A stretch of DNA of 28,189 nt from a virus (IMGVR_UViG_3300031974_004185:1-28189); one strand, 5' to 3'; positions 4,169-27,466 are shown, counted from the stretch's first letter. Numbers and translations: made by a program. Notes: generated by a model from the sequence alone, not told the origin.

Positions 4169-6117
4169 TGCAACTACCATTATTTGAACCAAAGAGTGAA
4201 TGGAAGCCTCCTCAACTGAGTGAGCTTCCATCTTGGAAAGGTAAAAAGAGAATTTGTATTGATGTTGAAACACGTGATGAGCAGCTTCGTAAGCTTGGTC
4301 CAGGAGTTCGTCGTGGTGGATATATTGTTGGAATTAGTTTCACTATAGAAGATGAAGGCTCTTATTATTTACCATATAGGCATGCGGGAGGAGATAATCT
4401 TCCTGTCGATGCAGTGCTTTCCTATATGAAGGAAAATGCTAAAGTATTCACTGGAGATTTGGTGGGTGCAAACCTTAGTTATGATCTAGACTATTTGTGG
4501 GAAGAAGGGATTTTCTTCCCCAATGTAAGATTTTATAGAGATATTCAGATTGCTGACCCTTTAATTTATGAATTACATAATAGTTATAGTTTGGATAACA
4601 TTGCCAAACGCCTTGGTCTGGCAGGTAAAGACGAAACACAATTGCGTATAGCTGCAAAAGATTATGGTGTTGACCCTAAAGGTGGTATGTGGAAACTTCC
4701 TGCTCGTCACGTAGGAGCATATGCAGAAGCAGATACACAACAACCATTATTAGTATTAAGACGTCAGGAAAGATTAATCGACGAACAAGATTTATGGGAT
4801 ATTTATGACTTAGAAAGCAAAGTTCTCCCTGTTTTAGTAAAAATGCGTCGTCGAGGTGTATTAATAGACCAAGATAAACTTAGTAGAGTAGAAGAATGGT
4901 CTACAACTCAGGAGAAAGAGGCTCTCTCGGAAGTTAAAAGGCTTTCAGGTGTAGCTATTAACCTTGGAGATGTTTGGAAAGCGGAGGCTATTGCTCCAGC
5001 TCTGGAGAACATAGGTATAAAGGTTGGTAAAACTGCCAAAACAAATAAACCTTCAGTTGATAAAGACTTTCTCACATCTGTAGACCACCCTGTTGCTAAA
5101 TCCTTACTTTGGGCACGTAAAACAAATAAGCTCAGAACAACTTTTGCTGCGTCAGTTCGTAGATATATGACTAATGGTCGTATCCATTGCGAATTTAACC
5201 AAATAGCAAGAGAAAATGAAGATGGAGAGCAAAAGGGTGCGAGATTCGGCAGGTTAAGTTGCACTAATCCAAATTTACAACAGCAACCAAGTCGTGACGA
5301 ATTTGCACAAATGTGGAGAGATATTTATATCCCAGAGCAGGATGCAATTTGGTGTGCAAATGACTATAGTCAGCAAGAACCTCGTTGGACAACTCATTTT
5401 GCAGCCGTGATGGGTCTTCCAGGAGCAAAAGCTGCTGCACAAGCTTATCATGATGATCCATTACTTGATAATCACCAATTTATGTCAGATTTAACAGGTC
5501 TTCCACGTAAAGCAGCCAAGAACATTTACTTGGGCTTGTGTTATGGTGAAGGTGGTGCAAAATTATGCCGAGAATTAGGTCTTCCAACTCGTTGGGCTTC
5601 CGTGTTTGGTAGAGGTCGTGACCGTAAAACTAAATATTATGCAACTCGTGAAGAAGCATTAGAAGCTAAAAAGCAGGTGGAAAACGGCTATATTTATGAA
5701 GCAGCAGGAGAAGAAGGTCAAAATATTTTAAATACTTTTGATAATCGTGCACCATTTATCCGACAATTGGCTAAAAAAGCCCAGCAGAAGGCAGCAGCCA
5801 AGGGTCAAATTCGTACTGGTGGTGGTCGTGTAATTCACTTCCCAGAAAAGAAAGACGGCAGTTATGATTGGTGTCATAAGGCTTTGAACCGCTTAATTCA
5901 GGGAACTTCAGCAGACCAGACCAAGAAAGCATTAGTTGCTTTGGATGAAGCTGGTTATTTTATGCAATTACAAGTACATGATGAAATAGATGGTAGTGTG
6001 GCAACTGAAGCAGAAGCTCACGCTCAAGCTAAAATTATGAGAGAGATTATGCCTTCAGAGGTTCCATTTAGGGTGGACACTGAATTAGGTAAAAGTTGGG
6101 GAGATTCAATGGGTTAG
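4168..6117 (+). CDS. polA: Family A DNA polymerase with 3'-5' exonuclease domain
   Basis: 649 residues from ATG 4168 (a TTG lies one codon upstream); GGGGAGGAAGG precedes it. The proofreading domain has Asp32 and Glu34 (CIDVET), an ExoII block GANLSYDLDYL and an ExoIII block YAEADTQQPL, so all acidic ligands appear present. Polymerase motif A is NDYSQQEPRW, motif B RKAAKNIYLGLCYG (Arg447, Lys451, Tyr459), motif C VHDEID. There is no 5'-nuclease domain, as in T7-like replicative polymerases. The residue matching E. coli Pol I Phe762 is leucine (Leu455). It is followed by a hairpin and promoter, so it ends an operon. Confidence 0.95.
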   Translation: MQLPLFEPKSEWKPPQLSELPSWKGKKRICIDVETRDEQLRKLGPGVRRGGYIVGISFTIEDEGSYYLPYRHAGGDNLPVDAVLSYMKENAKVFTGDLVGANLSYDLDYLWEEGIFFPNVRFYRDIQIADPLIYELHNSYSLDNIAKRLGLAGKDETQLRIAAKDYGVDPKGGMWKLPARHVGAYAEADTQQPLLVLRRQERLIDEQDLWDIYDLESKVLPVLVKMRRRGVLIDQDKLSRVEEWSTTQEKEALSEVKRLSGVAINLGDVWKAEAIAPALENIGIKVGKTAKTNKPSVDKDFLTSVDHPVAKSLLWARKTNKLRTTFAASVRRYMTNGRIHCEFNQIARENEDGEQKGARFGRLSCTNPNLQQQPSRDEFAQMWRDIYIPEQDAIWCANDYSQQEPRWTTHFAAVMGLPGAKAAAQAYHDDPLLDNHQFMSDLTGLPRKAAKNIYLGLCYGEGGAKLCRELGLPTRWASVFGRGRDRKTKYYATREEALEAKKQVENGYIYEAAGEEGQNILNTFDNRAPFIRQLAKKAQQKAAAKGQIRTGGGRVIHFPEKKDGSYDWCHKALNRLIQGTSADQTKKALVALDEAGYFMQLQVHDEIDGSVATEAEAHAQAKIMREIMPSEVPFRVDTELGKSWGDSMG

Positions 6118-6146
6118 AAAAAGACAATAAAGTTGTTGTCTTTTTC
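6117..6146 (+). terminator. AT-rich hairpin, possible terminator overlapping a promoter
   Basis: Arms GAAAAAGACAA (6117-6127) and TTGTCTTTTTC (6136-6146) pair perfectly over 11 bp with an 8-base loop; the second arm supplies a T-run. The first arm begins at the last base of the polymerase stop codon. The right arm also contains the -35 hexamer of the next promoter, so it may both end the polymerase transcript and start the next one. Confidence 0.5.
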
Positions 6147-6164
6147 TATTAGATAAATTATTAT
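6136..6164 (+). promoter_or_regulatory. Sigma70-like promoter, module copy 1
   Basis: TTGTCT (6136-6141), 17-base spacer, TATTAT (6159-6164). It carries the same GTTGTTGTCTTTTTC block seen before three other transcription units, and the downstream leader has AGAAAAGGA as ribosome site for the gene at 6202. This copy lacks the ACAACAAC part of the downstream arm. Confidence 0.62.
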
Positions 6165-6201
6165 TAATTCATTTAGTAGAATTTTAGAAAAGGAGATTGG
6201 A

Positions 6202-6693: not shown

Positions 6694-7117
6694 AACACAC
6701 AAAGACTTCTTAACTCTCGCCAAGTTTTGGGCTGAATTAAAAAGCAAAGACCCTAGCACTAAAGTTGCTGCTGTTATTGCTGATGATAAAAAGCGTATTG
6801 TTGGGATGGGATATAATGGATTCCCCAGAGGAGTTGAGGATAATCCAGAACGCTATCATGACAGGGAAATAAAGTATAAATATGTCGTGCATGCTGAAGT
6901 TAATGCAATATTAAATGCTGTGAAAAGTGTTGAAGGTTGCACACTCTATTGTTATCCTCTGCCAACTTGTAGTGAATGTGCTAAAGTAATTATTCAGTCT
7001 GGAATTAAAAGGGTTGTATTCCCTAAAGATTCCAATGTGGATAAAAATTGGACAGAATCTTTTAATTTTGCTTATCAAATGTACAGCGAAGCTGGTGTTG
7101 AGGTTTTGTATGTCTGA
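6683..7117 (+). CDS. Deoxycytidylate (dCMP) deaminase
   Basis: 144 residues. Zinc-dependent cytidine-deaminase-fold signature: His70-Ala-Glu72 (VVHAEVNAIL) and PLPTCSECAKVI with Cys96 and Cys99. The N-terminal STKVAAVIADDKK and GMGYNGFPRG are typical of dCMP deaminases. It converts dCMP to dUMP, the substrate of the thymidylate-synthase homologue at 2180, so it fits the proposed hmdU supply route. AGGA lies seven bases before the ATG. I did not see the HxxxxC zinc insert found in some allosteric dCMP deaminases, so dCTP/dTTP regulation is uncertain. Confidence 0.92.
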   Translation: MFHKTHKDFLTLAKFWAELKSKDPSTKVAAVIADDKKRIVGMGYNGFPRGVEDNPERYHDREIKYKYVVHAEVNAILNAVKSVEGCTLYCYPLPTCSECAKVIIQSGIKRVVFPKDSNVDKNWTESFNFAYQMYSEAGVEVLYV

Positions 7118-7523
7118 ACAAGGGATGAGACAAAAGGTTGTGAAGCTTTTAAGTGAATTGGGAGCATTTAGTGTAGAAAATCCCATTCGTCCAGGAACTC
7201 CTGACGTGAATTATATTGAAGGTTGGATAGAATTAAAATGGTTGAGAAGATATCCAAGGAATTATAAAGAAAGTCCCATTCTTATTGAACACTTTACTCC
7301 TCAGCAGCGTATATGGTTAAGGAAGCGATGGGAAAAGGGTGGTGCTGCTTATTTATTACTTCAAGTGAAAAAAGAATGGTTCTTATTCACTGGTAAGACT
7401 GCGTCGAAGATGGTGGGAAGATCAACCTATCAAGAATTGATAGGTTGTGCTGCTGCTTATTGGGCAAATGGTTTAAATAAAGAGGAATTAATAAAATGTC
7501 TAAGAAACAAAATTTCAGATTAA
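7110..7523 (+). CDS. PD-(D/E)XK-type nuclease (VRR-NUC/resolvase-like)
   Basis: 137 residues from ATG 7110, inside the end of the deaminase gene; an upstream in-frame start at 7014 would run deep into that gene and is unlikely. Catalytic pattern: RPGTPDVNYIEGWIELKW, giving Asp32, Glu41 and Lys43 in the spacing D-x8-E-x-K. A later FTPQQRIWLRKRWEKGG block fits the conserved glutamine helix of this superfamily. Likely roles are branched-DNA resolution or a host-takeover nuclease; the exact family needs a profile search. It carries an 11-bp perfect inverted repeat (7423-7447). Confidence 0.68.
   Translation: MSEQGMRQKVVKLLSELGAFSVENPIRPGTPDVNYIEGWIELKWLRRYPRNYKESPILIEHFTPQQRIWLRKRWEKGGAAYLLLQVKKEWFLFTGKTASKMVGRSTYQELIGCAAAYWANGLNKEELIKCLRNKISD
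7423..7447. repeat. 11-bp perfect inverted repeat in coding sequence
   Basis: Arms CAACCTATCAA (7423-7433) and TTGATAGGTTG (7437-7447) flank the loop GAA, within the 3' third of the nuclease gene and 48 bases before the next start codon (ATG 7496). It would form a stable RNA hairpin. No function is known. Confidence 0.9.
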
Positions 7524-7825
7524 CAGTAGGAGAATCTCTCCTGTTAGATCGAAGAAGACGTGGCGAGAATCAGAAACAAGCTGCTGCTCGTCTTGAATTA
7601 TCATATAATTCGTATTGTTATCTTGAAAGAGATATGATGGCTCACGATATTGAAGTAGAGTTAAATTCAATTGCACCGAACGAAAAATGCTTGATTTATA
7701 GAAAGCGAGCAGGTATGACACAAGCCCAAGTGGCGAATACTTTGGGCTTGTGTCGCTGGTGGATTAATTTAATGGAACAAGGTAAGTCTCCTTGTGGACA
7801 ATTACTTCAATTTTGGGAAGCATAA
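7496..7825 (+). CDS. Tandem helix-turn-helix (Xre-like) regulator
   Basis: 109 residues, ATG with AGAGGA upstream, overlapping the nuclease gene. Two HTH units are visible: residues about 10-45 (RLTVGESLLLDRRRRGENQ, then KQAAARLELSYNSYCYLE) and about 65-100 (RKRAGMTQAQVANTLGLC, then RWWINLMEQG). The second is the cleaner Xre/Cro-type unit. It is the only DNA-binding regulator in the window and therefore the best local candidate for acting on the repeated promoter module (inference). A 13-bp perfect inverted repeat lies within the second HTH coding region. Its stop overlaps the primase-helicase ATG (TAATG). Confidence 0.72.
   Translation: MSKKQNFRLTVGESLLLDRRRRGENQKQAAARLELSYNSYCYLERDMMAHDIEVELNSIAPNEKCLIYRKRAGMTQAQVANTLGLCRWWINLMEQGKSPCGQLLQFWEA
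7717..7754. repeat. 13-bp perfect inverted repeat within the HTH gene
   Basis: Arms GACACAAGCCCAA (7717-7729) and TTGGGCTTGTGTC (7742-7754) with a 12-base loop. Each arm contains the over-represented octamer AAGCCCAA, in opposite orientations. It codes for part of the second HTH, so it is both coding and palindromic; it might be an operator or an RNA hairpin. Confidence 0.92.
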
Positions 7826-10188
7826 TGAACAGCATAGAATTTTTAAGAAAGTGGAAGCAAGGAGGACCATGGGTTCTTACTTCAATTCAAACAGATAGAA
7901 AAGGAATACACACACAAACTTTCTATGAAAAAGATGCAGAAGCATTAGAGAATTGGTTAAATCAATATAATGGTAAACGAAATATTTATTTCCATGTAAA
8001 TCCTCCGACGCATGATTTAAAGAAAAAAGCTGAGCGTGAAGACATTAAAGAACTTTCTTGGTTGCATGTAGATATTGATCCTAGAGCTGGAGAAGACATT
8101 GAAGATGAACGTGAAAGAGCGTTAAATCTACTTACAGAAAGATTGCCTAAAGGGGTGCCAGCTCCCACTGTTATTGTATTTTCTGGTGGTGGTTTTCAAG
8201 GGTTTTGGCGTCTTGAAAATCCAATAATTATCAATGGAGACTTAGCAAAAGCAGAAGATGCTAAACGCTATAATCAACAATTAGAAATTTTGTTTGGAGC
8301 AGATAACTGTCACAACATTGATAGAATAATGCGTCTTCCAGGAACTATGAATATTCCTGATGCTCGCAAACAAAAGAAAGGAAGAAAGCCTGAATTAGCG
8401 AAGGTGGTAGAGTTTAATGAAAATATTTATGCACTAAAAAACTTTACTCCTGCTGCAGCAGTTCAAATGGCTGATGATAGTGGATTTAGTGGAAGTCGGG
8501 AAACTGTTAAAATAAGTGGTAATATTGAAAGAATTCAAGATGTTTCTGAATTGGATGAATGGTCAGTTCCTGACCGTATAAAAATAATAATTGTGCAAGG
8601 GAGTCATCCTGATGAAGTTAAACAAGGAGACAATAGTCGCTCTGCGTGGGTTTTTGATGCAATTTGTAATATGGTTCGTCGTGATGTTCCTGATGATATC
8701 ATTTTTAGCATATTAACAGATCCAGATTATGATATTTCAGAAAGCATTCTAGAAAAAGGCTCTAATGCTGAAAAGTATGCCATTAGGCAAATTGAGCGTG
8801 CAAAAGAAGAGGTTATAGATCCATGGTTGCGTAAACTTAATGAAAAATTTGCTGTGATAGGTAACATGGGTGGAAAATGTAGAATTGTTGAGGAAGTTCA
8901 CGACCCTGCATTAAATAGAAGCAGACTAACCAAACAATCATTCGATGATTTTTGTAATAGATATGCAAATATTGATATTGAAATTGGTATAAGTAAAACT
9001 GGTGTTCCACAAACTCAGAAATTAGGTAGGTGGTGGAAAGAACATCCTAAACGCAGACAATACGATTCACTAATATTTGCTCCAGGAAAAGAAGTTAGTA
9101 ATGCTTACAATTTGTGGAAAGGTTTTAGTTGTGAAAGTCTTCCTGGAGATTGTTCATTATTTCTTAAACACATAGAAGAAAACATATGTCAAGGCAATCA
9201 AGTGTTTTATGAATATCTTATTTCTTGGCTTGCTAGAGCAATACAGCAACCTGATTCTCCAGGAGAAGTTGCTGTTGTGTTGCGTGGTGGTCGTGGTGTT
9301 GGTAAATCCTTATTTGCCAAGGAGTTTGGGAAGCTATTTGGACGTCATTTTCTACAAGTTAGTAATGCTGGTCACTTAGTTGGTAACTTTAACAGCCACC
9401 TCAGAGACACTATTGTATTATTTGCGGATGAAGCATTCTTTGCTGGTGACAAGAAACATTCTTCAGTACTAAAAACTTTAATCACTGAAGAAACTATTAC
9501 AATTGAAGCAAAGGGTGTTGATGTAGAAGCAGCTCCCAACTATGTGCATTTAATTATGGCATCGAATGATATGCATGTCATACCAGCTGGGGGAGATGAA
9601 CGTAGGTTTTTTGTTTTGGATGTTGGTAAACAACACCAGCAGGACGCCTCTTATTTTGGGCTTCTTATGAAACAAATGGAAAATGGTGGGAGAGAAGCAT
9701 TACTTCATTATTTAATGACTTATGACATTTCTGACTATCAAGTTAGAAATGTTCCTCAAACAGATGCATTGAAGGAACAAAAGATGTTATCATTAAGCCC
9801 AGAAGAGGACTGGTGGTATCAAAAGCTGCTGGACGGAAGGTTGCTAGAAAAACATGAAGCTTGGGTTAGTGAAGTTATGAAACGTGAAATTATCGATGAC
9901 TTCATAGACAATCATAGAAGGTTTAATGTAACAAGACGTGGCACTGCAACACAGTTGGGCAGGTTCTTGAACCGTGTTTGTCCTACACTGACAGGTGTAC
10001 AGAAAATGGCAGAAATTGAAGTTAACCATCCTGACGGTTGGAGTTCTACTAAAAAGGAAAGAACTTATTTTTGGAAATTTCCATCATTAACAGAGTGTCG
10101 TGCACGTTGGGATGAGTTTTATGGTGGTGAGAAATGGTCAGAAGAACCACAACAATTTGAATTAAATAGCAAAAAAGATCCATTTTAG
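7825..10188 (+). CDS. Primase-helicase (AEP-type primase + SF3/DUF5906-type helicase)
   Basis: 787 residues from ATG 7825 (the in-frame start at 7792 lies inside the HTH gene). The N-terminal archaeo-eukaryotic primase-like domain has Asp83 and Asp85 in LHVDIDPR, a SGGGFQGFW block (120-128) and Asp166/Arg170 in DRIMRLPGTMN. The C-terminal superfamily 3-like ATPase has Walker A RGGRGVGKS (487-495), Walker B VLFADEAFF (Asp535, Glu536), a sensor-like LIMASND, and an arginine-rich GDERRFFVLDV. The architecture resembles phage primase-helicases related to DUF5906 and NrS-1-type primase-polymerases. It would prime and unwind DNA for the polymerase at 4168. Confidence 0.88.
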   Translation: MNSIEFLRKWKQGGPWVLTSIQTDRKGIHTQTFYEKDAEALENWLNQYNGKRNIYFHVNPPTHDLKKKAEREDIKELSWLHVDIDPRAGEDIEDERERALNLLTERLPKGVPAPTVIVFSGGGFQGFWRLENPIIINGDLAKAEDAKRYNQQLEILFGADNCHNIDRIMRLPGTMNIPDARKQKKGRKPELAKVVEFNENIYALKNFTPAAAVQMADDSGFSGSRETVKISGNIERIQDVSELDEWSVPDRIKIIIVQGSHPDEVKQGDNSRSAWVFDAICNMVRRDVPDDIIFSILTDPDYDISESILEKGSNAEKYAIRQIERAKEEVIDPWLRKLNEKFAVIGNMGGKCRIVEEVHDPALNRSRLTKQSFDDFCNRYANIDIEIGISKTGVPQTQKLGRWWKEHPKRRQYDSLIFAPGKEVSNAYNLWKGFSCESLPGDCSLFLKHIEENICQGNQVFYEYLISWLARAIQQPDSPGEVAVVLRGGRGVGKSLFAKEFGKLFGRHFLQVSNAGHLVGNFNSHLRDTIVLFADEAFFAGDKKHSSVLKTLITEETITIEAKGVDVEAAPNYVHLIMASNDMHVIPAGGDERRFFVLDVGKQHQQDASYFGLLMKQMENGGREALLHYLMTYDISDYQVRNVPQTDALKEQKMLSLSPEEDWWYQKLLDGRLLEKHEAWVSEVMKREIIDDFIDNHRRFNVTRRGTATQLGRFLNRVCPTLTGVQKMAEIEVNHPDGWSSTKKERTYFWKFPSLTECRARWDEFYGGEKWSEEPQQFELNSKKDPF

Positions 10189-11718: not shown

Positions 11719-12543
11719 ATGACTTATCAAGTAAAAGAATTTAATATTGCATTTAAAATAAATATGCCTGATAGTCCAGAGCTACCAGAGCAAAACAAAG
11801 CACGTCCTGTTGACGACGATCTAAAATTAAAGGAGTGGGCTGAAAAACTGGAGGATATTGCAGAAGACATGCATAAGTCTGCAGAAACAGCTGATCATCC
11901 ACTAAGTTATATGCGGTTGCATTTACTAACTGAAGAATTATCTGAGTTAGTGCGTGGATTAGAAAATGATGACATTGTTGAAACTTTAGATGCATTGTGT
12001 GATTTACGCTATGTGTTGGATGGAACAATCCTCAGCTTTGGGCTTGATCATGACGATATTTTTGATAAAGCTTATAAAGAAGTTCATCGCTCCAACATGT
12101 CGAAATTAGATGAAAATGGTGAACCAATATTTAATCCTGCAGGTCGTGTTGTTAAAAGTTCAAAATACACACCTCCTGATCTCAAACAATTCTTTAATGA
12201 AGAAGATTTTAAAAGATGGGGAACTGGTTTGAATCAACGTTATGTGGGAGGAATTGAACATTTAGTTGGTCGACCAAGAGATTTAATTTATTTAGACTTA
12301 ACTGATTATGGAGCTGACACTCTTTTGAATAAATGGGGTGGTGGTAAACAGTGGGCTATTGAAAGAGTTCTTGATAATGTTGAATATGAAAACGAAATGC
12401 ATGAAAAAGATCCTAATAGACAAGTTTGGAACCCTCGCTGCAAAGAAGCTGTTTATCGTGTTTCTTATGTTAATGTTCCATATGGTTTTTGGAAAACATT
12501 AAAGAAAAAAGTAAAACTTGAAAAGGTATTTCCCAATGATTGA
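11719..12543 (+). CDS. MazG-like nucleoside triphosphate pyrophosphohydrolase with extra C-terminal domain
   Basis: 274 residues from ATG 11719. Residues 60-150 hold the all-alpha NTP pyrophosphatase core: EExxE at 72-76 (LLTEELSELV) and ExxD at 88-91 (VETLDALCDLRYVL), then the typical NMSKLDENGEPIFNPAGRV and KSSKYTPPDL ending. The remaining 125 residues (KQFFNEEDFKRWGTG onward) are not part of the usual fold and I do not recognise them. Such enzymes remove triphosphates such as dUTP or dTTP-like substrates; here it may shape the nucleotide pool around hmdU (inference). It overlaps the next gene by eight bases. Confidence 0.8.
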   Translation: MTYQVKEFNIAFKINMPDSPELPEQNKARPVDDDLKLKEWAEKLEDIAEDMHKSAETADHPLSYMRLHLLTEELSELVRGLENDDIVETLDALCDLRYVLDGTILSFGLDHDDIFDKAYKEVHRSNMSKLDENGEPIFNPAGRVVKSSKYTPPDLKQFFNEEDFKRWGTGLNQRYVGGIEHLVGRPRDLIYLDLTDYGADTLLNKWGGGKQWAIERVLDNVEYENEMHEKDPNRQVWNPRCKEAVYRVSYVNVPYGFWKTLKKKVKLEKVFPND

Positions 12544-12902: not shown

Positions 12903-13445
12903 ATGACTCGTATAAATTGTATTCCAGTTCAGGAATTATGTCGTCACCATCTTGTAGCTGAATATCGTGAATTGCCACGTGTGTTTAAGTTAGCTTATAA
13001 AGCTATTAACAAGGGAACAGCAATAGCCGTTCCCCCTACTTATACTTTGGGCACTGGTCACGTCAAGTTTTTCTATGCTCGTCTTGAATATTTATCTAAA
13101 CGGCATGAAGAATTAGTTGCTGAAATGAAGGCTCGTGGCTTTAAACCACAAATGGAAAATGTTGGAGCTGAATGGAAAACTAAGATTGAACAAATTTATT
13201 GGAACGACTGGAAGCCCAGTGAACAAGATATGTCTATTAATCGTGCACGCATAGAGGAACGCAAGCCCAAGTTGAAGTTTGTTCGTGAGGACAGGGGAAT
13301 GTGTCGTAGATACTATTCTTTTTCTCGTAAGTTGTATTGTGAATGTGAACTTAACAACGAACTTTATGTTTGTAGTAAAGATGGTGAACCTTCACATAAG
13401 GTTGCTGATTCTGTTGAAGAATTTAATAAGAGGTTAGCAAAATGA
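12903..13445 (+). CDS. denV: T4 endonuclease V-like pyrimidine dimer DNA glycosylase
   Basis: 180 residues, start MTRIN as in T4 endonuclease V. The catalytic Thr2 (N-terminal amine after Met removal), Arg3, the block AEYRELPRVF with Glu23, and TLGTGHVKFFYARLEYLSKR all match the T4 enzyme closely. The family cuts at UV-induced cyclobutane pyrimidine dimers. The protein is about 40 residues longer than the T4 enzyme (138 residues): the MCRRYYSFSRKLY region probably matches T4 WYKYYGKAIY, and a C-terminal extension (CELNNELYVCSKDGEPSHK onward) follows. First gene after promoter copy 3. Confidence 0.93.
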   Translation: MTRINCIPVQELCRHHLVAEYRELPRVFKLAYKAINKGTAIAVPPTYTLGTGHVKFFYARLEYLSKRHEELVAEMKARGFKPQMENVGAEWKTKIEQIYWNDWKPSEQDMSINRARIEERKPKLKFVREDRGMCRRYYSFSRKLYCECELNNELYVCSKDGEPSHKVADSVEEFNKRLAK

Positions 13446-14350: not shown

Positions 14351-15496
14351 ATGTCACACTTTAGTGTATTGGTTATTACAAAGAGTAGACCTTCTAAGAT
14401 TGACTTAGAAGGTTTGATGATGCCTTATCATGAGTTTGAATGCACAGGTTATGAAGCATATATTCAAGAAATAGATGAAACTGAGGAGATGAGGAAAAAA
14501 TTTTCTATCAATACTTCAGAATACTATAAAAATGAAGAAGGTGAGCTGTTTGAAACTTATGAAGATCAATTTTTCAGAGACCCAAAAGAAGGAGAATTAG
14601 AAAGGGCTGGTGTCATAGGTGGCACTGGTGCAGGGAATGATATTAGCTGGCATAGTCGTGATTGGAATGATGGGAAAGGTTATCGAACTAAAGTTCACTA
14701 TATTCCTGAAGAATTTACTCCAGTAACAAAGTCTATTGCTGAAGTAAAGTCTTTCCGTGAGTGGTTGAAGGATTGTACTAATAGACAAGAAATCTTGTCT
14801 ATTAGTGAATTAAATGAAGAAACTAAATATGGTTACACCCTCATAGATAGTAATGGCGAAGTTGTAAAAACCATTAAGAGAACTAATCCTAATTATAAAT
14901 GGGACTGGTGGGAGATTGGTGGTCGTTATCGTAACAGGTTGCTTTCTACACAAGGTGGTGTTTGTGATTCAGAAAGGGTTGGAGATATCGACTTTGAAGT
15001 CATGAAACAAACAGCTGTGATGCGTAGGGAGGAATCTTTAGAAAAAGTTGTGAAAGAGAGTTTGCTTTCTTTTGAAGAAATAAACTCTCTTTGGGCTCAA
15101 TACGTCAAATATGGAGGTTGGAAAGCTTTTATTAAAGAATGGGAAAATATGGAAGGTAGAAAAGGCATTAGACCTCATGAAGCAATAAGTCTTTTGCCAG
15201 AAAATCATATTATTAGAAAAATGAGGGAAACTGATTTACTTAACAAGTTTTCTGGTATGCTTGGACTTGATGTTGATGAGACTGAACCAAATTTGGAGAA
15301 TTGGGTTCAGTCTGCTCCAGCCTTATCCTGCTATGCCATTAATTATGATGGGCAGTGGGAAGCTATTGGGGAAATGGGCTGGTTTGGTTGTTCTTCAGAC
15401 GAGGTTACACAAGCCCAGTGGCAGGCAACTGTTGATGAAACTCTGGCAAAGTGTAGTAAGGATTATTGGATAACAGTGGTGGATTGTCATGTTTAG
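14351..15496 (+). CDS. Conserved phage/plasmid protein (MSHF-type), unknown function
   Basis: 381 residues, ATG with AGGAG upstream. The N-terminus MSHFSVLVITKSRP, the PYHEFECTGYE block, NPNYKWDWWEIGGRYRNRL and the C-terminal QWEAIGEMGWFGCSSDE then ITVVDCHV belong to a conserved family I know from many phages and plasmids, always as hypothetical. The invariant WDW-x-x-GGR and aromatic/acidic blocks suggest a globular enzyme-like fold, but no reaction is known. Four perfect inverted repeats of 10 to 14 bp lie within this one gene. It heads the group 14351-16551 behind promoter copy 4. Confidence 0.72.
   Translation: MSHFSVLVITKSRPSKIDLEGLMMPYHEFECTGYEAYIQEIDETEEMRKKFSINTSEYYKNEEGELFETYEDQFFRDPKEGELERAGVIGGTGAGNDISWHSRDWNDGKGYRTKVHYIPEEFTPVTKSIAEVKSFREWLKDCTNRQEILSISELNEETKYGYTLIDSNGEVVKTIKRTNPNYKWDWWEIGGRYRNRLLSTQGGVCDSERVGDIDFEVMKQTAVMRREESLEKVVKESLLSFEEINSLWAQYVKYGGWKAFIKEWENMEGRKGIRPHEAISLLPENHIIRKMRETDLLNKFSGMLGLDVDETEPNLENWVQSAPALSCYAINYDGQWEAIGEMGWFGCSSDEVTQAQWQATVDETLAKCSKDYWITVVDCHV
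14389..14413. repeat. 10-bp perfect inverted repeat
   Basis: ACCTTCTAAG (14389-14398) and CTTAGAAGGT (14404-14413), loop ATTGA, near the start of the MSHF-type gene. Confidence 0.88.
14777..14806. repeat. 14-bp perfect inverted repeat in coding sequence
   Basis: ACTAATAGACAAGA (14777-14790) and TCTTGTCTATTAGT (14793-14806), separated by AA, the same minimal spacing as the repeat at 525-556. Confidence 0.92.
15053..15092. repeat. 11-bp perfect inverted repeat with inner hairpin
   Basis: AAAGAGAGTTT (15053-15063) and AAACTCTCTTT (15082-15092). Within the 18-base interval TTTCTT and AAGAAA can pair around TTG, giving a nested hairpin. Confidence 0.85.
15279..15313. repeat. 10-bp inverted repeat, extended past one mismatch
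   Basis: AGACTGAACC (15279-15288) and GGTTCAGTCT (15304-15313) pair perfectly; after one mismatch four further bp can form, in the 3' part of the MSHF-type gene. Confidence 0.85.
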
Positions 15497-16551: not shown

Positions 16552-16600
16552 TATATTATTGTAGATTGACATCTGTTGATTATCTGGTCGACAGATGCGG

Positions 16601-16862: not shown

Positions 16863-16877
16863 AATTGTTGTTTTTGC

Positions 16878-16907
16878 TTGCCTTTCACCTTGGGCTTGCC
16901 TTATAAT
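16878..16907 (+). promoter_or_regulatory. Candidate late promoter before the terminase genes
   Basis: TTGCCT (16878-16883), 18-base spacer, perfect TATAAT (16902-16907). The spacer contains one TTGGGCTT octamer. It would drive the head gene operon; its sequence is unrelated to the repeated early promoter module. Confidence 0.5.
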
Positions 16908-17577: not shown

Positions 17578-19129
17578 GCCAACTCAACAAGAAAGCCTAG
17601 AATACGAGGAGCGGTATCAACAGGCGGTTGCTATCGAGGCAAAAGTTGCTCGTCAAGTAAACGGTAATTCAAACGTTATTTGGAGTCCGCAAGAGGGTTC
17701 TCAACACTTCGTTATGAAGTGCAGCATTTTTGAATTACTTTTCCATGGCACTCGTGGTCCAGGAAAAACAGACACACTGCTGATGTGTTTTGCTCAACAT
17801 GTTGGTAAAGGTTTTGGACAAGCATGGCGTGGCATTATTTTCCGTGAAACCTATCCACAGTTAGCAGACGTTCAAGCCAAGTCTGAAAAATGGTTCAGAC
17901 AGATCTTTGGTGACAAAGCTAAATTCAATAAATCTAAAATGATGTGGGAATGGGACACAGGTGAAGTTCTTATGTTCCGACACATGAATTCACCCAGCGA
18001 TTATTGGAACTACCATGGGCATGAATACCCATTCATTGGTTGGGAGGAATTAACCAACTGGGCAACGGATGAATGTTATAAATCCATGATATCTTGTTGT
18101 CGTAGCTCAACTCCCGGAGTTCCTAGAATGTTGCGTGCTACCACCAACCCATATGGAGCAGGACACACATGGGTGAAAGAGCGGTTTAGGCTTGGTGGTC
18201 GTTGGTGGGAAACCATCATTGTCACAGACAGCCGTGATATTGCAGGAAGATTAGAACCACCACGCTGTGCTGTTCATGGTCATATCGATGAAAACAAAAT
18301 TCTCCTTGAAGCTGATCCAAACTATGTCCAAAACATCATCGCTTCTGCCAGCAATCCAGCAATGGCAGCTGCATGGATGGATGGTAGTTGGGACATTGTG
18401 GCAGGAGGAATGATTGGTGATATATGGGATCCGCAGGTTCATGTATTAGAACCATTCAACATACCACAAAGCTGGAGAATAGACAGAAGCTTCGACTGGG
18501 GAAGTTCTGCTCCATTCAGTGTTGGCTGGTGGGCTGAAAGCGATGGTTCTGATATTCAATTAGCAAATGGTCAGTGGATGTCAACTGTTCGTGGTGATTT
18601 ATTCCGCATTAATGAATGGTATGGTTGGACAGGCAAGCCCAATGAAGGAGTTAGGATGCTGGCTGTAGACATAGCAAAAGGAATTATACAGCGACAACTC
18701 AACTGGAAAATACATGACAGAGTTAAAGCTGGACCAGCGGATAGTGCTATCTATTCAGCTGAAAATGGCAACTGCATAGGAACTGACATGGAAAAGAAAG
18801 TGAAGCTTGATAATGGTGAAGTTTACAAGGGTGTGTATTGGACAAGAGCCGACAAGAGAGCAGGTTCAAGAAAGACAGGTTGGGAGCAAATTCGTAAGAT
18901 GTTAAAGAACGCCAAAAAGCCAGCTATTGGACCACGAGAGCATGCTGGATTATTCGTGTTTAGTAACTGCACTCAGTTTTTGAGAACCATGCCAGTGCTT
19001 CCTCGTTGTGATAAAGACCCTGATGAAGTTCATAAGGATGCTGAAGACCACATAGCAGATGAAGTGCGTTATAGAATTAGGAGCAGCAACCCATTGTCAA
19101 GGGTTGGGAGAACTGTTGGACATCATTGA
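17561..19129 (+). CDS. terL: Terminase large subunit (ATPase and nuclease)
   Basis: 522 residues, overlapping the small subunit by 17 bases. ATPase: Walker A GTRGPGKT (63-70), Walker B FIGWEEL with Glu162/Glu163, and a coupling region ATTNPYGAGHTWV. RNase H-like nuclease: Asp312 in SFDWGSSAPFSVGWW, Asp394 in AGPADSAIY, and Asp496/Asp500 in DAEDHIADEVRYR. It pumps DNA into the prohead and cuts it. The length is slightly above average for the family and all motor residues appear intact. Confidence 0.96.
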   Translation: MTTEHKPTQQESLEYEERYQQAVAIEAKVARQVNGNSNVIWSPQEGSQHFVMKCSIFELLFHGTRGPGKTDTLLMCFAQHVGKGFGQAWRGIIFRETYPQLADVQAKSEKWFRQIFGDKAKFNKSKMMWEWDTGEVLMFRHMNSPSDYWNYHGHEYPFIGWEELTNWATDECYKSMISCCRSSTPGVPRMLRATTNPYGAGHTWVKERFRLGGRWWETIIVTDSRDIAGRLEPPRCAVHGHIDENKILLEADPNYVQNIIASASNPAMAAAWMDGSWDIVAGGMIGDIWDPQVHVLEPFNIPQSWRIDRSFDWGSSAPFSVGWWAESDGSDIQLANGQWMSTVRGDLFRINEWYGWTGKPNEGVRMLAVDIAKGIIQRQLNWKIHDRVKAGPADSAIYSAENGNCIGTDMEKKVKLDNGEVYKGVYWTRADKRAGSRKTGWEQIRKMLKNAKKPAIGPREHAGLFVFSNCTQFLRTMPVLPRCDKDPDEVHKDAEDHIADEVRYRIRSSNPLSRVGRTVGHH

Positions 19130-19176: not shown

Positions 19177-20616
19177 ATGGCATTAAATAGCACAAACCCA
19201 CTATACAGCGAGTTCATCACGGATTGGATCACAATGCGTGACACTTATCGTGGTGAAAGAATTGTAAAGGACAAAGGTGAAGCATATCTACCAGCAACAG
19301 GTGGTATGAAAGCAGATGGAATGAATTCTGCTAATGCTATTGGCTATCAAGCATACAAAGCTTACAAGGAAAGAGCTGTTTTCCATGACTTTGTTTCTGA
19401 TGCCGTTGAAGCTATGATTGGTATGATGCACCATAAGCCTCCAGTTATTGAACTTCCTTCAGTTCTCGAAGATATGCGTAAAAATGCAACCATTACTGGA
19501 GAAAGTTTGGAGCAGTTACTTCGTAGAATTAATGAAGAGCAATTGGTGACTGGTCGTCTAGGATTGCTCTTAGATTTGCCACAAAACCCTGATCCAACCA
19601 ACCCATTACCATACATTGTGAGTTATCGTGCTGAAGATATTATCAACTGGGATGACGGTGCACGAGGACAAATGTTACTCCCACAGTTGAATTTGGTTGT
19701 GTTAAACGAAAGTGAGTATGAGCGTACAGACGAGTTTGAATGGGAATTAGTAGAGAAATACAGAGCCTTAATTTTAGGTGATGTAGAAGACAATGAAAAC
19801 TCTGGCGTTTACAGAACAGGAGTATTCAGGAAGAACCTAACATTTACTGAAGAAGCATTAATTGAACCAAGCATCCGTGGTTCAATGCTTGATAAAATCC
19901 CATTCACATTTATCAACACCAAAGACATTGTTTCTTGCCCTGACGACCCACCTCTTATTGGGCTTGCCAAACTTGCTCTTGCAATATATCGTGGTGAAGC
20001 TGACTATCGTCAGAATTTATTTATGCAAGGTCAAGACACACTTGTCATCACTGGCGGTAATGAAGAAGAATACAGAGTTGGCACAGGTGCAGTAATAAAC
20101 CTGCCTAACTCTGAGTCTGATGCAAAATTCATTGGTGTTACTAGTGATGGACTGGCAGAGCAAAGACAATCTTTAGAGAATGACAAAGCCCAAGCGGTGA
20201 ATAAGGCTGGTCAAATGATTGACACTCGTAGTCGTCAGAAAGAAAGTGGTGATGCATTAAAAATCAGATTGGCTGCTCAAACAGCAACCTTAAACCAAAT
20301 AGCACTAACAGGTGCAGCTGGATTAGAATCAACTTTAAGAATGGCTGCTGAATGGTTAGGTGCAAACCCTGATGAAGTTAATGTTACTCCTAACCTTGAC
20401 TTTGTTGACGATGAGTTAACTGGTAAAACCCTTGTTGAATACATGTCTGCCAAAGCCATGGGTGCTCCACTTTCAAATAAATCTGTTCATTCTATCATTA
20501 AGAACAGAGGACTCACAGAAATGGAATATGAAGAAGAAATTTCTGAAATTGAAAATGAAGGCATAGTTACTGGCACTGGCACAAATGCTGGTGGAGATGC
20601 TGATGACGACAGCTAA
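19177..20616 (+). CDS. Portal protein (DUF4055 / SPP1-like)
   Basis: 479 residues. It begins with the DUF4055 pattern YSEFITDWITMRDTYRGE, KGEAYLPATGG, YQAYKAYKERAVFHDFVSDA, and MIGMMHHKPPVIELP, followed by the GRLGLLLDLP and YIVSYRAEDIINWD strands. The C-terminal half has the helical ALKIRLAAQTATLNQIAL section and an acidic, disordered tail (GTGTNAGGDADDDS). It forms the dodecameric DNA gate of the capsid. The last 14 bases overlap the minor head gene. Confidence 0.88.
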   Translation: MALNSTNPLYSEFITDWITMRDTYRGERIVKDKGEAYLPATGGMKADGMNSANAIGYQAYKAYKERAVFHDFVSDAVEAMIGMMHHKPPVIELPSVLEDMRKNATITGESLEQLLRRINEEQLVTGRLGLLLDLPQNPDPTNPLPYIVSYRAEDIINWDDGARGQMLLPQLNLVVLNESEYERTDEFEWELVEKYRALILGDVEDNENSGVYRTGVFRKNLTFTEEALIEPSIRGSMLDKIPFTFINTKDIVSCPDDPPLIGLAKLALAIYRGEADYRQNLFMQGQDTLVITGGNEEEYRVGTGAVINLPNSESDAKFIGVTSDGLAEQRQSLENDKAQAVNKAGQMIDTRSRQKESGDALKIRLAAQTATLNQIALTGAAGLESTLRMAAEWLGANPDEVNVTPNLDFVDDELTGKTLVEYMSAKAMGAPLSNKSVHSIIKNRGLTEMEYEEEISEIENEGIVTGTGTNAGGDADDDS

Positions 20617-21802
20617 TGAAGCATTATTCGATTCACTTATTAGACACCAGATATTTCTGTTGAGATTTAGTGGTTCTGTTCGTAACAAGATCTATGAGCT
20701 ACTAAACGCTACTGAACAAGACATCGCTGAAAAGATTCGTGATAGGTTACGCAATGCCAACGGATTAAGCTCTCCTGCAGATCTTCGTAGATTAGATGTG
20801 GTTTTACGGTTAGTGAAAAATATCCGCAGCGAAGCATGGCAGGAGTCTGAGTCTCTCTGGGCTTCTGAAATCATTGAACTTGCAAAAACTGAACCAGAAA
20901 CATTAAACAAGATGATAATAGCAACAGCACCAGTGGTTGTTGATACAAGTTTACCAAGCCCAAAGACGTTGAAAGCTATCGTCACTAGTAAACCATTTGA
21001 AGGAAGAACATTGAAGGAATGGGCAAGAAAAATAGCTGATGAAGACTTGCGTAGAATAGAAAATCAAATACGACTGGGAATGGTATCAGGAGAATCCAGT
21101 GCTCAGATAGCTCGTAGAGTAGTTGGTAGTGCTAAGTTAAAAGGAGCTGACGGTGTTACAGAAATAACACGTAGACAAGCAGCCTCTATAACTAGAACAG
21201 CTGTAAACTTTACAGCAAACCAAGCTCGGACTGAATATCTAAAGGAAAACAAAGACATATTGGCAAAGGAACAGTATGTTGCCACACTAGATTCAAGAAC
21301 CACTGCTGTGTGTCGTGCTAATGATGGTAAATTATTCAAACTTGGTGAAGGACCAATTCCTCCCCTGCATTTTAATTGTCGTAGTTTGCGTGTGCCTTTC
21401 TTGGAAGATTCTATCCTTGTGGAACGACCAGCAAAGCCAGTTACAGAAAAGATGTTGTTAAGAGAATTTGCAGAGAAAAATAAAATCAAGTCTGTTTCCT
21501 CTAGAAATAATCTTCCATTTGGAACCAAGCGAAAGTTTGATAAATACAAACGTCAAAGAATTCGTGAATTAACAGGACAAATTCCATCAGCAACAAATTA
21601 TCAAGAATGGCTGACAAGACAATCTAAAGAATTCCAAGACGATGTTTTGGGATCTACTAAGGGAAAGTTATTCCGTGAAGGTAATTTAAAATTGGATAGG
21701 TTTGTTAATCGAACTGGTGATGAATTAAACCTCAGTGAATTAGCTCGTAAAGAAGCCCAAGCGTTCAGAGCTGCTGGGCTTGATCCTAAAGACTTTTTAT
21801 AA
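20603..21802 (+). CDS. Minor head protein (SPP1 gp7 / Mu F-like)
   Basis: 399 residues from ATG 20603, chosen for GGAG six bases upstream; in-frame ATGs at 20585 and 20597 are also possible. The signature region is ITRTAVNFTANQARTEYLKE, YVATLDSRTTAVCRANDG and IPPLHFNCRSLRVPFLED, the cysteine/histidine pattern of the SPP1 gp7 family. The C-terminal 120 residues are conserved-looking but unassigned (NYQEWLTRQSKEFQDDVLG, LSELARKEAQAFRAAGLDP). The family attaches to the portal and helps genome entry or assembly. Confidence 0.88.
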   Translation: MTTANEALFDSLIRHQIFLLRFSGSVRNKIYELLNATEQDIAEKIRDRLRNANGLSSPADLRRLDVVLRLVKNIRSEAWQESESLWASEIIELAKTEPETLNKMIIATAPVVVDTSLPSPKTLKAIVTSKPFEGRTLKEWARKIADEDLRRIENQIRLGMVSGESSAQIARRVVGSAKLKGADGVTEITRRQAASITRTAVNFTANQARTEYLKENKDILAKEQYVATLDSRTTAVCRANDGKLFKLGEGPIPPLHFNCRSLRVPFLEDSILVERPAKPVTEKMLLREFAEKNKIKSVSSRNNLPFGTKRKFDKYKRQRIRELTGQIPSATNYQEWLTRQSKEFQDDVLGSTKGKLFREGNLKLDRFVNRTGDELNLSELARKEAQAFRAAGLDPKDFL

Positions 21803-22015: not shown

Positions 22016-22837
22016 ATGACCATTAAATCCATTTATTCTACACAAGATGAAATTCCAGAAAATTATAGAGATTTGTTCGAGGAACGCAATGGTGCGTACC
22101 ACCTTACAAAGATTGAAGGAATTAAGACAGATGCAGACGTTAGTCGTGTTCAAACTGCATTAACAAATGAAAGAAATGAACACACAAAATTAAAGAATCA
22201 AGTTAAAACCTTTGTTGGTGAAGGATCTTTCGACGACATTCAAGCCAAGCTAGATCGTATTCCAGAATTGGAGCAATTAGCTGAAGGCAAAGTGGATGAA
22301 GAAAAGATTAATTCATTAGTAGAAGCTCGTTTGAAAACTAAGTTAGCACCAGTTGAACGTGAAAGAGATCAACTAGCTACTAAGCTTTCTGAACGTGATG
22401 AAGTGATCAGTGGTTATGAAACAAAAGAACGTCAGAGAAATATACATGATGCAGTTCGTCAAGCAGCAACTAAGCTAAAAGTAATTGACACAGCACAAGA
22501 AGATGTATTAATGCTGGCTGAGAGAGTATTTGAAATTCAAGACGATGGTTCAATCACAGCTAAGGATGGAGTTGGCGTTACTCCTGGAGTTGCTCCTGAT
22601 ATTTGGCTAACAGAAATGCAAAGTAAACGTCCTCATTGGTGGGCTGCAAGTTCTGGTGGTGGAGCGAGAGGCTCTGGTTCAGGTGGAAATTTATCTGGCA
22701 ATCCATGGTCTGCTGATAGTTGGAATATGACTAAACAAGGACAAATTATTCGTTCAGAAGGAATGGAGAAAGCCCAACAAATGGCGCAGGCAGCTGGTTC
22801 AAAAGTGGGAGCAATAGCACCTACTGCTAAGAAATAG
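22016..22837 (+). CDS. Scaffolding protein
   Basis: 273 residues, ATG with AAGAGGA upstream. The N-terminal SIYSTQDEIPENYRDLFEE and YHLTKIEGIKTDADVSRVQ lead into a long coiled coil (about residues 45-140, rich in Lys/Glu/Arg). The C-terminus has a Gly/Ser-rich linker followed by NPWSADSWNMTKQGQIIRSE and a small basic end, a layout typical of phage scaffolds whose C-terminal helix binds the capsid protein. Its position directly before the capsid gene agrees. No protease motif is visible. Confidence 0.85.
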   Translation: MTIKSIYSTQDEIPENYRDLFEERNGAYHLTKIEGIKTDADVSRVQTALTNERNEHTKLKNQVKTFVGEGSFDDIQAKLDRIPELEQLAEGKVDEEKINSLVEARLKTKLAPVERERDQLATKLSERDEVISGYETKERQRNIHDAVRQAATKLKVIDTAQEDVLMLAERVFEIQDDGSITAKDGVGVTPGVAPDIWLTEMQSKRPHWWAASSGGGARGSGSGGNLSGNPWSADSWNMTKQGQIIRSEGMEKAQQMAQAAGSKVGAIAPTAKK

Positions 22838-24091: not shown

Positions 24092-24610
24092 ATGGGTAAA
24101 GGTTTACCAAGATCAATGTCTCGAGGAGATAAAATTCGCCAAGAATTAGTGAAAGAAACTATAACTGTGAGCGGAACTGTCACTGTAAGTGCCACAGGTG
24201 CAGCTATTGGTTATGGTTCATTAGTTATTAGTGGGCTTCCTCAAGGTAATATTCTTTTCCTAGGTGCAGCTGCCTATATTGGGCTTGCTGGATCAGGATC
24301 AGATGCTAATTTAGCAGATACATGGTCAGGTGATTATGGTATAGGAACAACTCCAGCGGACGATGCTACTATTACAGGCACAGATGTTGACATTATTCCA
24401 TCAACAGCAGTTGGTGCAGCCACTGCTGAAGTTATTGCTGAAACCAGAGGTGTTAATTCCACACAAGCAATGTTTGATAATACAGATGGTTCATTAGAAC
24501 TTAATTTGAATGTATTAATTGATGCTGCTAACATCACTGATGATGAAAGTGTTGACTTAACAGCAAGTGGTAAATTAGCACTAGCATATATTGTATTACT
24601 GGACGATTAA
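24092..24610 (+). CDS. Putative virion structural protein (possible head decoration)
   Basis: 172 residues, ATG with AGAGAGG upstream. It is Ala/Gly/Thr/Ser-rich and beta-dominated (ETITVSGTVTVSATGAAIG, SLVISGLPQGNILFLGAA), with acidic C-terminal stretches and no cysteine. Composition and place right after the capsid gene suggest a head decoration or auxiliary capsid protein; no specific family recognised. Confidence 0.55.
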   Translation: MGKGLPRSMSRGDKIRQELVKETITVSGTVTVSATGAAIGYGSLVISGLPQGNILFLGAAAYIGLAGSGSDANLADTWSGDYGIGTTPADDATITGTDVDIIPSTAVGAATAEVIAETRGVNSTQAMFDNTDGSLELNLNVLIDAANITDDESVDLTASGKLALAYIVLLDD

Positions 24611-24638: not shown

Positions 24639-24661
24639 ATAACTCTGTAGGAGAATTTATT

Positions 24662-25234
24662 ATGAAAGAAAAAATAATTGAAGCATTAAAACAATTAGAT
24701 CTAGAAAATGATGACCATTTTACAAATGATGGTTCTCCTCGTATTGATGTAGTTGTTGAGTTATCAGGAGTGAAGGGTTTAAAGCGTGGAGACATCACTG
24801 GTGCAGCTCCAGCATTTAGTCGAGATAATCCTGTGTTTGAAATTACAGATGAAAAAGAAGATGAGGTCACTGTTGAAGAAGAAACAGAGGATGGTGATGA
24901 TCTTCAAGCATTAGAAATTAAAGCTCAGAAAGCTGAAGATGTATTGAAAGAAGCCCAAGCGAAGGCTCTGGAGGCTGAAAAAGCTGTTCTTGAAGCCCAA
25001 AGGGCAAGGGATGCAATTATCGAAGCGAGAGAGGCTGAAAGACCTGTTCATGAGAATCAACAAAACATCATGAACTATTTAGAGTCTCAAAAACGTCTGA
25101 GAGAGGCAAAAGTAAATAAATTTAATAAAGCTGTTGAAGGAATTGATCTCAAGCAGCTAGACCCTGTTGCTCCTATTGATAAAGCAATGGCACGCAAGAA
25201 AGGTCATGGATTAACTAGACCAACCAGAGGTTAA
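24662..25234 (+). CDS. Phage protein with coiled coil, probable structural
   Basis: 190 residues, ATG preceded by AGGAG. The N-terminal 55 residues (LKQLDLENDDHFTNDGSPR, SGVKGLKRGDITGAAPAF) resemble a small domain found in phage head-region proteins. A Glu-rich stretch (about 60-80) follows, then an Ala/Glu/Lys coiled coil (about 82-125) and a basic C-terminus ending RKKGHGLTRPTRG. Function unknown. Two octamers AAGCCCAA fall in the coiled-coil codons. Confidence 0.65.
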   Translation: MKEKIIEALKQLDLENDDHFTNDGSPRIDVVVELSGVKGLKRGDITGAAPAFSRDNPVFEITDEKEDEVTVEEETEDGDDLQALEIKAQKAEDVLKEAQAKALEAEKAVLEAQRARDAIIEAREAERPVHENQQNIMNYLESQKRLREAKVNKFNKAVEGIDLKQLDPVAPIDKAMARKKGHGLTRPTRG

Positions 25235-25235
25235 G

Positions 25236-25409: not shown

Positions 25410-25412
25410 AAA

Positions 25413-26942: not shown

Positions 26943-26944
26943 TT

Positions 26945-27466
26945 ATGACTTTAGTGGTAGAAGATGGAACAGGATTAGCTGCAGCGAACGGATATATTTC
27001 TGTCGCTGATGCTGATACTTATTTTAGTGACAGGGGAATAACCACTTGGACTGGAACAGACACTGTTAAAGGTCAAGCTATTATTAAAGCTACTGATTAT
27101 ATAGAAACTAGGTGGGGTCATTTATTTAAAGGATACAGACAATTCCCAGATACTCCCCAAGGACTCAACTTCCCTCGTTTGGGCTTGTATGATCGTGAAG
27201 GATACCAAGTGACAGGAATACCAACTAATCTAGAAAGAGCAACGGCAGAATATGCATTAAGAGCGTTGTCTGCTACATTAATGCCTGACCCAACTATTGA
27301 TGATAGTGGTTATGCTATTGCTGAAAAAAGAGTAAAAGTTGCTTCTGTAGAGGAGGAAACAGTTTTTCACACAGGTGGTGCAAGCCCAGTGATAACGAAA
27401 CCTTATCCTGCTGCGGATAAATTATTGCGTGAATATGTTGCTTCAACTGGGAGGGCAGTGAGATAA
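26945..27466 (+). CDS. DnaT-like / head-tail adaptor protein
   Basis: 173 residues. It begins LVVEDGTGLAAANGYISVADADTYF (first residues MTLVVEDGTG), with KGQAIIKATDYIETRW and LNFPRLGLYDREG following: a phage family often labelled putative DnaT-like ssDNA-binding protein. In this genomic position, two bases after the tail spike and before a stopper-like gene, the role is probably a head-tail connector (adaptor) rather than replication. The following start overlaps its stop (TAATG). Confidence 0.75.
   Translation: MTLVVEDGTGLAAANGYISVADADTYFSDRGITTWTGTDTVKGQAIIKATDYIETRWGHLFKGYRQFPDTPQGLNFPRLGLYDREGYQVTGIPTNLERATAEYALRALSATLMPDPTIDDSGYAIAEKRVKVASVEEETVFHTGGASPVITKPYPAADKLLREYVASTGRAVR

Follow-up and report, generated by a model that had tools for sequence, protein, structure and literature searches.

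The window, a virus record of 28,189 bp (G000) that was analysed over its whole length, has a GC content of 37% and resembles members of the Mesyanzhinovviridae (YuA, PaMx11 and Bordetella CN1) in its gene order and proteins. Its genes include those for a 5hmdU DNA kinase, Nmad5, a thymidylate-synthase homologue, an HD protein, PolA and a dCMP deaminase, and further on for a small nuclease-type protein, an HTH protein, a primase-helicase, terminase, portal, MuF and capsid. A nucleotide-level search found no close phage record, the sole genome-contig match in the host search was a MAG contig, and Rfam and tRNA scans of the window gave nothing. The features of the replication region are:

4165..6117, plus strand: family A DNA polymerase (PolA), in the same module as the primase
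7014..7523, plus strand: small protein between PolA and primase, a VRR/RecU-like nuclease by position and by its relatives' annotation
7496..7825, plus strand: HTH protein (HTH_31) immediately preceding the primase, weighed below as an alternative reader of the element
7825..10188, plus strand: primase-helicase fusion that joins an AEP (RepB'-type) primase and an NrS-1/D5-type helicase, the candidate reader of the element
7828..8463, plus strand: AEP catalytic domain (AF2 mean pLDDT 87)
8065-8082, plus strand: AEP motif I, HVDIDP, in the catalytic domain
8182-8199, plus strand: AEP motif II, SGGGFQ, in the catalytic domain
8320-8325, plus strand: AEP motif III, DR, in the catalytic domain
8542..8799, plus strand: predicted helix-bundle domain (HBD), AF2 helices 239-324

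The product of 7825..10188 matches RepB_primase (26.5 bits) and DUF5906 (77 bits). Among PDB sequences, the NrS-1 primase (6k9c/6k9e) stands alone as a noteworthy relative and matches the helicase part; the closest folds of the product by Foldseek are RepB' (3h20/3h25) and the S-2L PrimPol (6zp9), and the matches include RSF1010 RepB' bound to initiator DNA. The primase motifs have the form HxDxD, SGGG(x)Q and DR; residues H80, D82, D84, S119-G122, D165 and R166 are invariant among 26 homologues, and the glutamine of motif II is nearly so. In the AF2 model a low-confidence segment (213-232) serves as linker before the predicted HBD. By these motifs and models, the phage encodes a primase of the AEP type. 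The small protein at 7014..7523 has no Pfam match; it has homologues in the genomes that carry this module, conserved between PolA and primase, and the neighbouring gene of phage Pam3 is annotated as recombination protein U.

A preliminary description of this DNA had listed 19 positions of the octamer AAGCCCAA/TTGGGCTT, and a script run over the whole window returned exactly 19 copies, identical one for one, of which 10 are on the plus and 9 on the minus strand. This is the commonest octamer of any kind in the AT-rich window. The 280 octamers with the base composition of AAGCCCAA have 1.2 copies on average, and the runner-up among them, AGCCCAAA, reaches 10 copies and overlaps AAGCCCAA; none matches 19. 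The rough expectation of about one copy was also sound, as Markov models of first, second and third order predict 1.2, 1.1 and 1.9 copies, respectively, so that the excess outlasts even the third-order model. When amino-acid sequence and codon usage were held fixed (the codon-preserving null), genes contained 18 copies of AAGCCCAA against 1.0 expected, 27 of AAGCCCA against 2.5 and 15 of CAAGCCCA against 0.5. The excess is present in six of six orientation and frame classes of the window genes; thus codon or codon-pair preference cannot be its cause, as had been argued from the occurrence of copies in both orientations and all reading frames. Moreover, the copy at 16890 does lie outside genes, upstream of terS, and two octamers do form the arms of a real inverted repeat, GACACAAGCCCAAGTGGCGAATACTTTGGGCTTGTGTC. 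The octamer excess is therefore confirmed.

The conserved word is the heptamer AAGCCCA, with 28 copies in the window, followed by A in 19, G in 7, C in 1 and T in 1. The sites are:

5519..5537, minus strand: AAGCCCAA with 3' purine side, in PolA; exact octamer at 5530; from the flank profile
5581..5599, minus strand: AAGCCCAA with 3' purine side, in PolA; octamer at 5592; the aligned position is also a site in G015 and G014
7722..7740, plus strand: AAGCCCAA with 3' side, left arm of the inverted repeat
7731..7749, minus strand: AAGCCCAA with 3' side, right arm of the inverted repeat
7717..7754, no strand: the inverted repeat, about 70 bp before the primase gene starts, within the end of the HTH gene
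9645..9663, minus strand: AAGCCCAA with 3' purine side, in the primase-helicase; exact octamer
12027..12045, minus strand: AAGCCCAA with 3' purine side; exact octamer
13263..13281, plus strand: AAGCCCAA with 3' purine side; exact octamer
16060..16078, plus strand: AAGCCCAA with 3' side; exact octamer
16879..16897, minus strand: AAGCCCAA with 3' purine side, intergenic; exact octamer
18635..18653, plus strand: AAGCCCAA with 3' purine side, in TerL; exact octamer
19947..19965, minus strand: AAGCCCAA with 3' purine side, in portal; exact octamer
20186..20204, plus strand: AAGCCCAA with 3' purine side, in portal; exact octamer
20956..20974, plus strand: AAGCCCAA with 3' purine side, in MuF; exact octamer
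21753..21771, plus strand: AAGCCCAA with 3' side, in MuF; exact octamer
22770..22788, plus strand: AAGCCCAA with 3' side, in scaffold; exact octamer
24268..24286, minus strand: AAGCCCAA with 3' side; exact octamer
24951..24969, plus strand: AAGCCCAA with 3' purine side; exact octamer
24993..25011, plus strand: AAGCCCAA with 3' purine side; exact octamer
27168..27186, minus strand: AAGCCCAA with 3' purine side; exact octamer
920..938, plus strand: variant element AAGCCCAT, heptamer copy
5777..5795, plus strand: variant element AAGCCCAG, heptamer copy
9795..9813, plus strand: variant element AAGCCCAG, heptamer copy; the aligned position is also a site in G014
13212..13230, plus strand: variant element AAGCCCAG, heptamer copy
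15411..15429, plus strand: variant element AAGCCCAG, heptamer copy
20846..20864, minus strand: variant element AAGCCCAG, heptamer copy
21763..21781, minus strand: variant element AAGCCCAG, heptamer copy
24220..24238, minus strand: variant element AAGCCCAC, heptamer copy
27382..27400, plus strand: variant element AAGCCCAG, heptamer copy

An array of repressor operators or stoperators was discarded as an explanation, 27 of the 28 heptamers being inside ORFs and in both orientations. Converging inverted pairs of sites number 2 in the window with 0.41 expected; relatives show no consistent excess of such pairs, and they were dropped as a functional unit. Spacing is no more even than random, with PaMx11 as a marginal exception.

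The octamer noticed earlier is a real part of the signal, but it belongs to a longer, one-sided element that had escaped notice: AGCCCA followed on the same strand by about 9-12 purines, in the form 5'-(C/G)AAGCCCA-R(9-12)-3'. In the window, 92% of the sites have a purine at +1 after AAGCCCA, and the purine excess reaches z 7.0 at +1..+6 and z 3.9 at +7..+12, being absent from the flank profile at -24..-1 and +13..+24. It is present whether the sites are sense or antisense to the genes. The tract was also found in G015, G014, G012, G001, G003 and Simon, and is strongest in G001 (z 10.8), where it ends near +9, counted from GCCCA; words permuted from the core gave z of at most 2.1 at +1..+6 in the same genomes. 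Related phages from 37 to 65% GC share the core, (A)GCCCA and then a purine, in the forms AAGCCCAA, GCCCAAG or AGCCCAGG. The purine at +1 is mostly A in the window and almost always A in G010 (GCCCAA 87, GCCCAG 1), and is G in PaMx11, Simon and G003. In seven shared genes the majority of sites are at non-homologous positions between relatives, and thus selection appears to act on the density of sites rather than on single sites. Differences in folding between sites and controls were small and inconsistent, and a hairpin structure like that of ssiA was discarded.

Across phages, the excess follows the replication module (AEP primase-helicase, PolA and small nuclease) and not the host, the capsid genes or the T-hypermodification genes. 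Under the codon-preserving null, the median observed/expected ratio of GCCCAR was 1.60 in 18 phages with the module, whereas 30 others had a median of 0.90 (p 8e-8, which overstates independence since the lineages are related). Two contigs ranked high among these others, L030 (1.52) and L053 (1.24); they belong to G004 and G028, and a profile search run in parallel over 16 further records found the primase in these two only. The median z of the purine tract was 5.1 in the 18 and 0.1 in the 30. In an unbiased scan of module against other phages, the words that separated the two groups best were GCCCA among 512 pentamers and AGCCCA among 2080 hexamers. Moreover, 19 further primase loci, unused before, contained the word 371 times versus 257 expected, with a tract z of 11.3. 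ORF calling is imperfect in GC-rich genomes and missed the primase ORF in some, so the codon-null numbers are approximate there; Markov results in these genomes point in the same direction. The association of the asymmetric element with the phage replication module is new, and we found no paper on the element in the open-access literature, a search in which most subscription journals lay outside the scope.

The word covaries with the primase gene, with the exceptions of G008, which has a primase and no GCCCAR excess (0.91), and of G011 and G007, which have a primase and a weak excess. In the 10-kb contig L033 the word is present but no primase gene. Pam3, a Pseudanabaena myophage with the same module, contractile-tail structural genes and a cyanobacterial host, also has a weak excess (1.38), with purine bias on both sides of the word. 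Some genomes have other words that are stronger, namely CTCGAA in the YuA-type phages (YuA and M6) and CGATCC and CCCGAG in Pam3. CTACAG in G016/G017 was considered as an analogous primase word and may be one, but it lacks the purine tract.

Lambda and MissDaisy also carry strong generic words, which ruled out the notion that such words occur only in module phages and gives some colour to an artefact of chance or codon pairs. However, the excess in six frame classes, the non-coding copies, the replicated flank signature and the rank in the unbiased cross-genome scan make such an artefact hardly conceivable.

The preliminary description had proposed a Chi- or uptake-like host motif, a protein-binding site for replication or packaging, or a recognition site tied to DNA modification; the evidence favours a protein-binding site for replication and speaks against the others. 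For packaging, 18 relatives that share only TerL have the word 299 times versus 328 expected (tract z 1.0), and a packaging site is thus disfavoured. A word imposed by the host, either an uptake-type signal or a compositional habit, would have a parallel in DNA-uptake sequences, in which a short core likewise carries flanks on one side only and copies are found on either strand. Nevertheless, P. aeruginosa phages differ by primase carriage: GCCCAR is at 1.6-1.65 in PaMx11, YuA and M6, which have the primase, and at 0.9-1.0 in PB1, KPP25 and PaMx28 and 1.18 in LUZ24, which do not. Within this one host species the excess goes with carriage of the primase, which speaks against a host Chi or uptake motif, and since the core is in addition common to phages of different hosts and base compositions, we regard a host-imposed word as very improbable.

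Somewhat more weight is due to a Chi-like recombination signal with a helicase-nuclease of the phage as its reader. Chi words are lineage-specific, over-represented, dispersed and present in all frames, as is the word described here, and the module phages carry a Dda/RecD-like helicase. On the other hand, Chi is usually strand-biased, and the sites are balanced in the window (16:12) and in G001 (49:50). Chi is not known to have a primer-length purine tract on one side, and among the predictors compared (replication module, host, capsid, hypermodification and terminase genes) it was the primase module that emerged; such a signal seems improbable. Known Chi and DNA-uptake words resemble the present one as dispersed, octamer-sized words in all frames, but their readers are encoded by the host.

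The kinase, Nmad5 and the thymidylate-synthase homologue in the window made a recognition or protection site of thymidine hypermodification through the 5hmdU kinase pathway look suggestive, all the more as 12 of the 13 phages first classed as GCCCAR-positive have the kinase. However, G010 has GCCCAA 87 times versus 31 expected, its 58.7-kb record has no 5hmdU kinase, and no hypermodification family was found among its 18 scanned proteins; the link was dropped on this ground, and a modification-recognition site is disfavoured. In addition, Pam3 and G009 have kinase homologues and a weak or moderate excess, and the M6 kinase has been inferred to act on TG/TC dinucleotides (PMC6449724). We hold this explanation to be quite improbable, slightly more so than a Chi-like signal.

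We consider it fairly probable, from the analysis as a whole, that the RepB'-type primase of the phage recognizes the template sequence 5'-Y(9-12)-TGGGC(TT)-3' and starts synthesis at it. The primase would read this strand, complementary to the element, once it is exposed as single-stranded template, the helix-bundle and catalytic domains binding TGGGC(TT). Synthesis would begin with A or G at the pyrimidine immediately 5' of TGGGC(TT), copying of the pyrimidine tract would yield a primer rich in purines, about 8-12 nt long, and PolA would extend this primer. The fused helicase-primase would fire preferentially at these words, and sites would be retained at their spacing because each fork needs starts on the lagging template. 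The mean site spacing is 0.6-3.3 kb per strand, which is of the order of Okazaki fragments. Primases prefer a purine as starting nucleotide, and reading of the complementary strand would give a purine start, in agreement with this preference. The site is indeed asymmetric, with the purine that would initiate and the region of primer length on one side of the word. The AEP motifs, the predicted HBD and the predicted RepB' fold are consistent with a reading by the primase.

Some observations run against this reading. Orientation is balanced in the window and G001 and unequal in other phages, with no clear switch along the genome such as a single unidirectional fork might impose. The excess is absent in G008 and weak in G011, G007 and Pam3, and stronger words of other kinds are present in YuA, M6 and Pam3.

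The reader could instead be another protein of the module, such as the small nuclease, the HTH protein, the DNA polymerase or an unseen DNA-binding protein, acting for example in fork restart or DNA organisation. The genes of these proteins travel with the primase, and the inverted repeat with its two sites adjoins the HTH and primase genes. The primase is co-inherited with PolA and the small nuclease-type protein, and it is genetically separable only against distant relatives that share PolA alone; 14 of these have the word 132 times versus 125 expected (tract z -0.1) and thus lack the excess, which speaks against another reader. A homologue of the HTH protein was not detected in G001, G009 and Pam3, although the tract is strongest in G001, and a core of 7 bp with a one-sided purine tract is not an expected requirement of a polymerase or junction nuclease. 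Another reader within the module thus seems unlikely, though clearly less so than a Chi-like signal.

For the AEP class there is documented precedent for a reading by the primase, related enzymes recognizing a template motif of 3-8 nt and starting a short primer just 5' of it. The PrimPol of NrS-1, also a phage enzyme in which an AEP primase is joined to a helicase of the related D5 type, reads an 8-nt template sequence, 5'-TTTGGTTA-3' (Zhu et al. 2017, as cited in PMC8718748); it also uses GTG, and synthesis begins with the base directly upstream (PMC8718748). Compared without gaps, TTGGGCTT and TTTGGTTA are identical at 5 of 8 positions, but in the fold search the AEP domain of the window is nearer to RepB' than to the NrS-1 type. 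RSF1010 RepB', with which the window primase shares the predicted AEP fold and the glutamine of motif II, makes specific base contacts with its single-stranded initiator (3h20, 3h25), contacting seven bases of ssiA (PMC4434180). The differences are that RSF1010 has one hairpin-bearing ssi of 40 nt per strand and a leading-strand mode only, whereas the window has dozens of short dispersed sites. The primase of pRN1 ORF904 reads GTG and stops at a unit primer of 8 nt (PMC8076596). Here the likeness is in the layout, with the recognition motif 3' on the template and a primer of fixed length 5' of it, and the assay templates are pyrimidine-rich 5' of the motif as are the window sites; the difference is in the GTG recognized. 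That motif is not known to be dispersed in a genome.

In the NrS-1 genome (AB746912), TTTGGTTA is not enriched, with 1 copy versus 2 expected, and it was given up as a precedent for enrichment. From this and from the single ssi per strand of RSF1010, it follows that known AEP sites need not be dispersed. The NrS-1 case weighs on the generality of the idea and not on the enzyme of the window. The view that a phage family spells its primase start signal genome-wide, as a template core of 5-7 bp with a pyrimidine tract of primer length, selected at Okazaki-scale spacing on both strands while single sites turn over, has in our judgement about an even chance of being right.

If a reading by the primase is correct, the specificity of AEP primases would be predictable from genome statistics, and the same might hold for the nucleotide with which synthesis starts, A for G010 and G for PaMx11, and for the primer length. 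It would account for an otherwise puzzling word that is scattered through the genomes of a widespread family of phages, among them the YuA, M6 and PaMx11 groups, and it could readily be tested in vitro on short oligonucleotides such as 5'-CTCTTCTCTTTTGGGCTTG-3'. Even with another replication protein as the reader, the existence of an asymmetric element and its tie to the module would stand as new and testable facts. The primase reading would also provide an AEP case in which the start sites of a primase shape codon choice across the genome, beside a weak signal in T7. The T7 gp4 words (GGGTC/TGGTC) are similarly short and moderately over-represented on both strands, but gp4 is a DnaG-type primase that makes tetranucleotide primers, and the over-representation is only 1.3-1.5-fold. 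Under the codon-preserving null, the T7 primase tetramer GGTC is present 362 times versus 277 expected on both strands, second of 136 by the six-class score.

Of the 28 copies of the heptamer AAGCCCA in the window, only one lies within positions 1-5500 (p 0.018). This heptamer-poor stretch holds the genes for the 5hmdU kinase, Nmad5 and TS, and it is possibly a block that was acquired recently. Two of the octamers form an inverted repeat at 7717-7754, about 70 bp ahead of the start codon of the primase, which may be a regulatory or origin hairpin.

The core word GCCCAR is also enriched in L033, a 10.3-kb contig with 38% GC, where 17 copies were found against 5.7 expected. No primase homologue was detected within these 10.3 kb, and we predict that the contig derives from a phage bearing the primase.

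CTACAG is over-represented in the phage genomes G017 (L162-L164; 160 observed against 51 expected) and G016 (L168-L169; 100 against 31). The primase of G017 is of the RepB type, with an AAA_25/DnaB-like helicase as its fusion partner, and this genome also encodes Thy1; in G016 there is a match to RepB_primase. A purine tract beside CTACAG was looked for in both genomes and none was found. In the Pseudanabaena myophage Pam3 (L177), strong dispersed words are CGATCC (158 against 54.5) and CCCGAG (132 against 45), and the former is also enriched in the phage genome G010 (L133-L135; 102 against 44). G010 almost wholly avoids GCCCAG (1 against about 35), alongside an enrichment of GCCCAA (87 against 31), and further avoided words are GCCCAGG (0 against 10), CTACAG (0 against 8) and CTCGAA (1 against 11). 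This looks like either restriction avoidance or a strict rule on the starting base. In the NrS-1 genome (L170), TTTGGTTA itself is not enriched; AGTGTAAC, which contains GTG, the more efficient start motif of NrSPol, occurs 11 times in genes against 1.4 expected.

A separate repeat lies upstream of terS, where ACTTAAC/GTTAAGT is clustered on both strands at 16600-16865, with nine copies in about 260 bp and tandem GTTAAGTA units at 16763-16788. Near the terminase genes of relatives, mostly upstream, there are short stretches in which a repeated word different from that of the window is clustered.

Repeated words near terminase genes in relatives
L003, 8330-8700: AAGTCGAG
L008, 1210-1480: CCTAGA
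L011, 25-410: TTGTACCA
L051, 2273-2530: AAGTCAAG
L062, 8868-9190: AAGGTAAG

Such clusters are candidates for a pac site or an origin whose recognition word would be changing fast.
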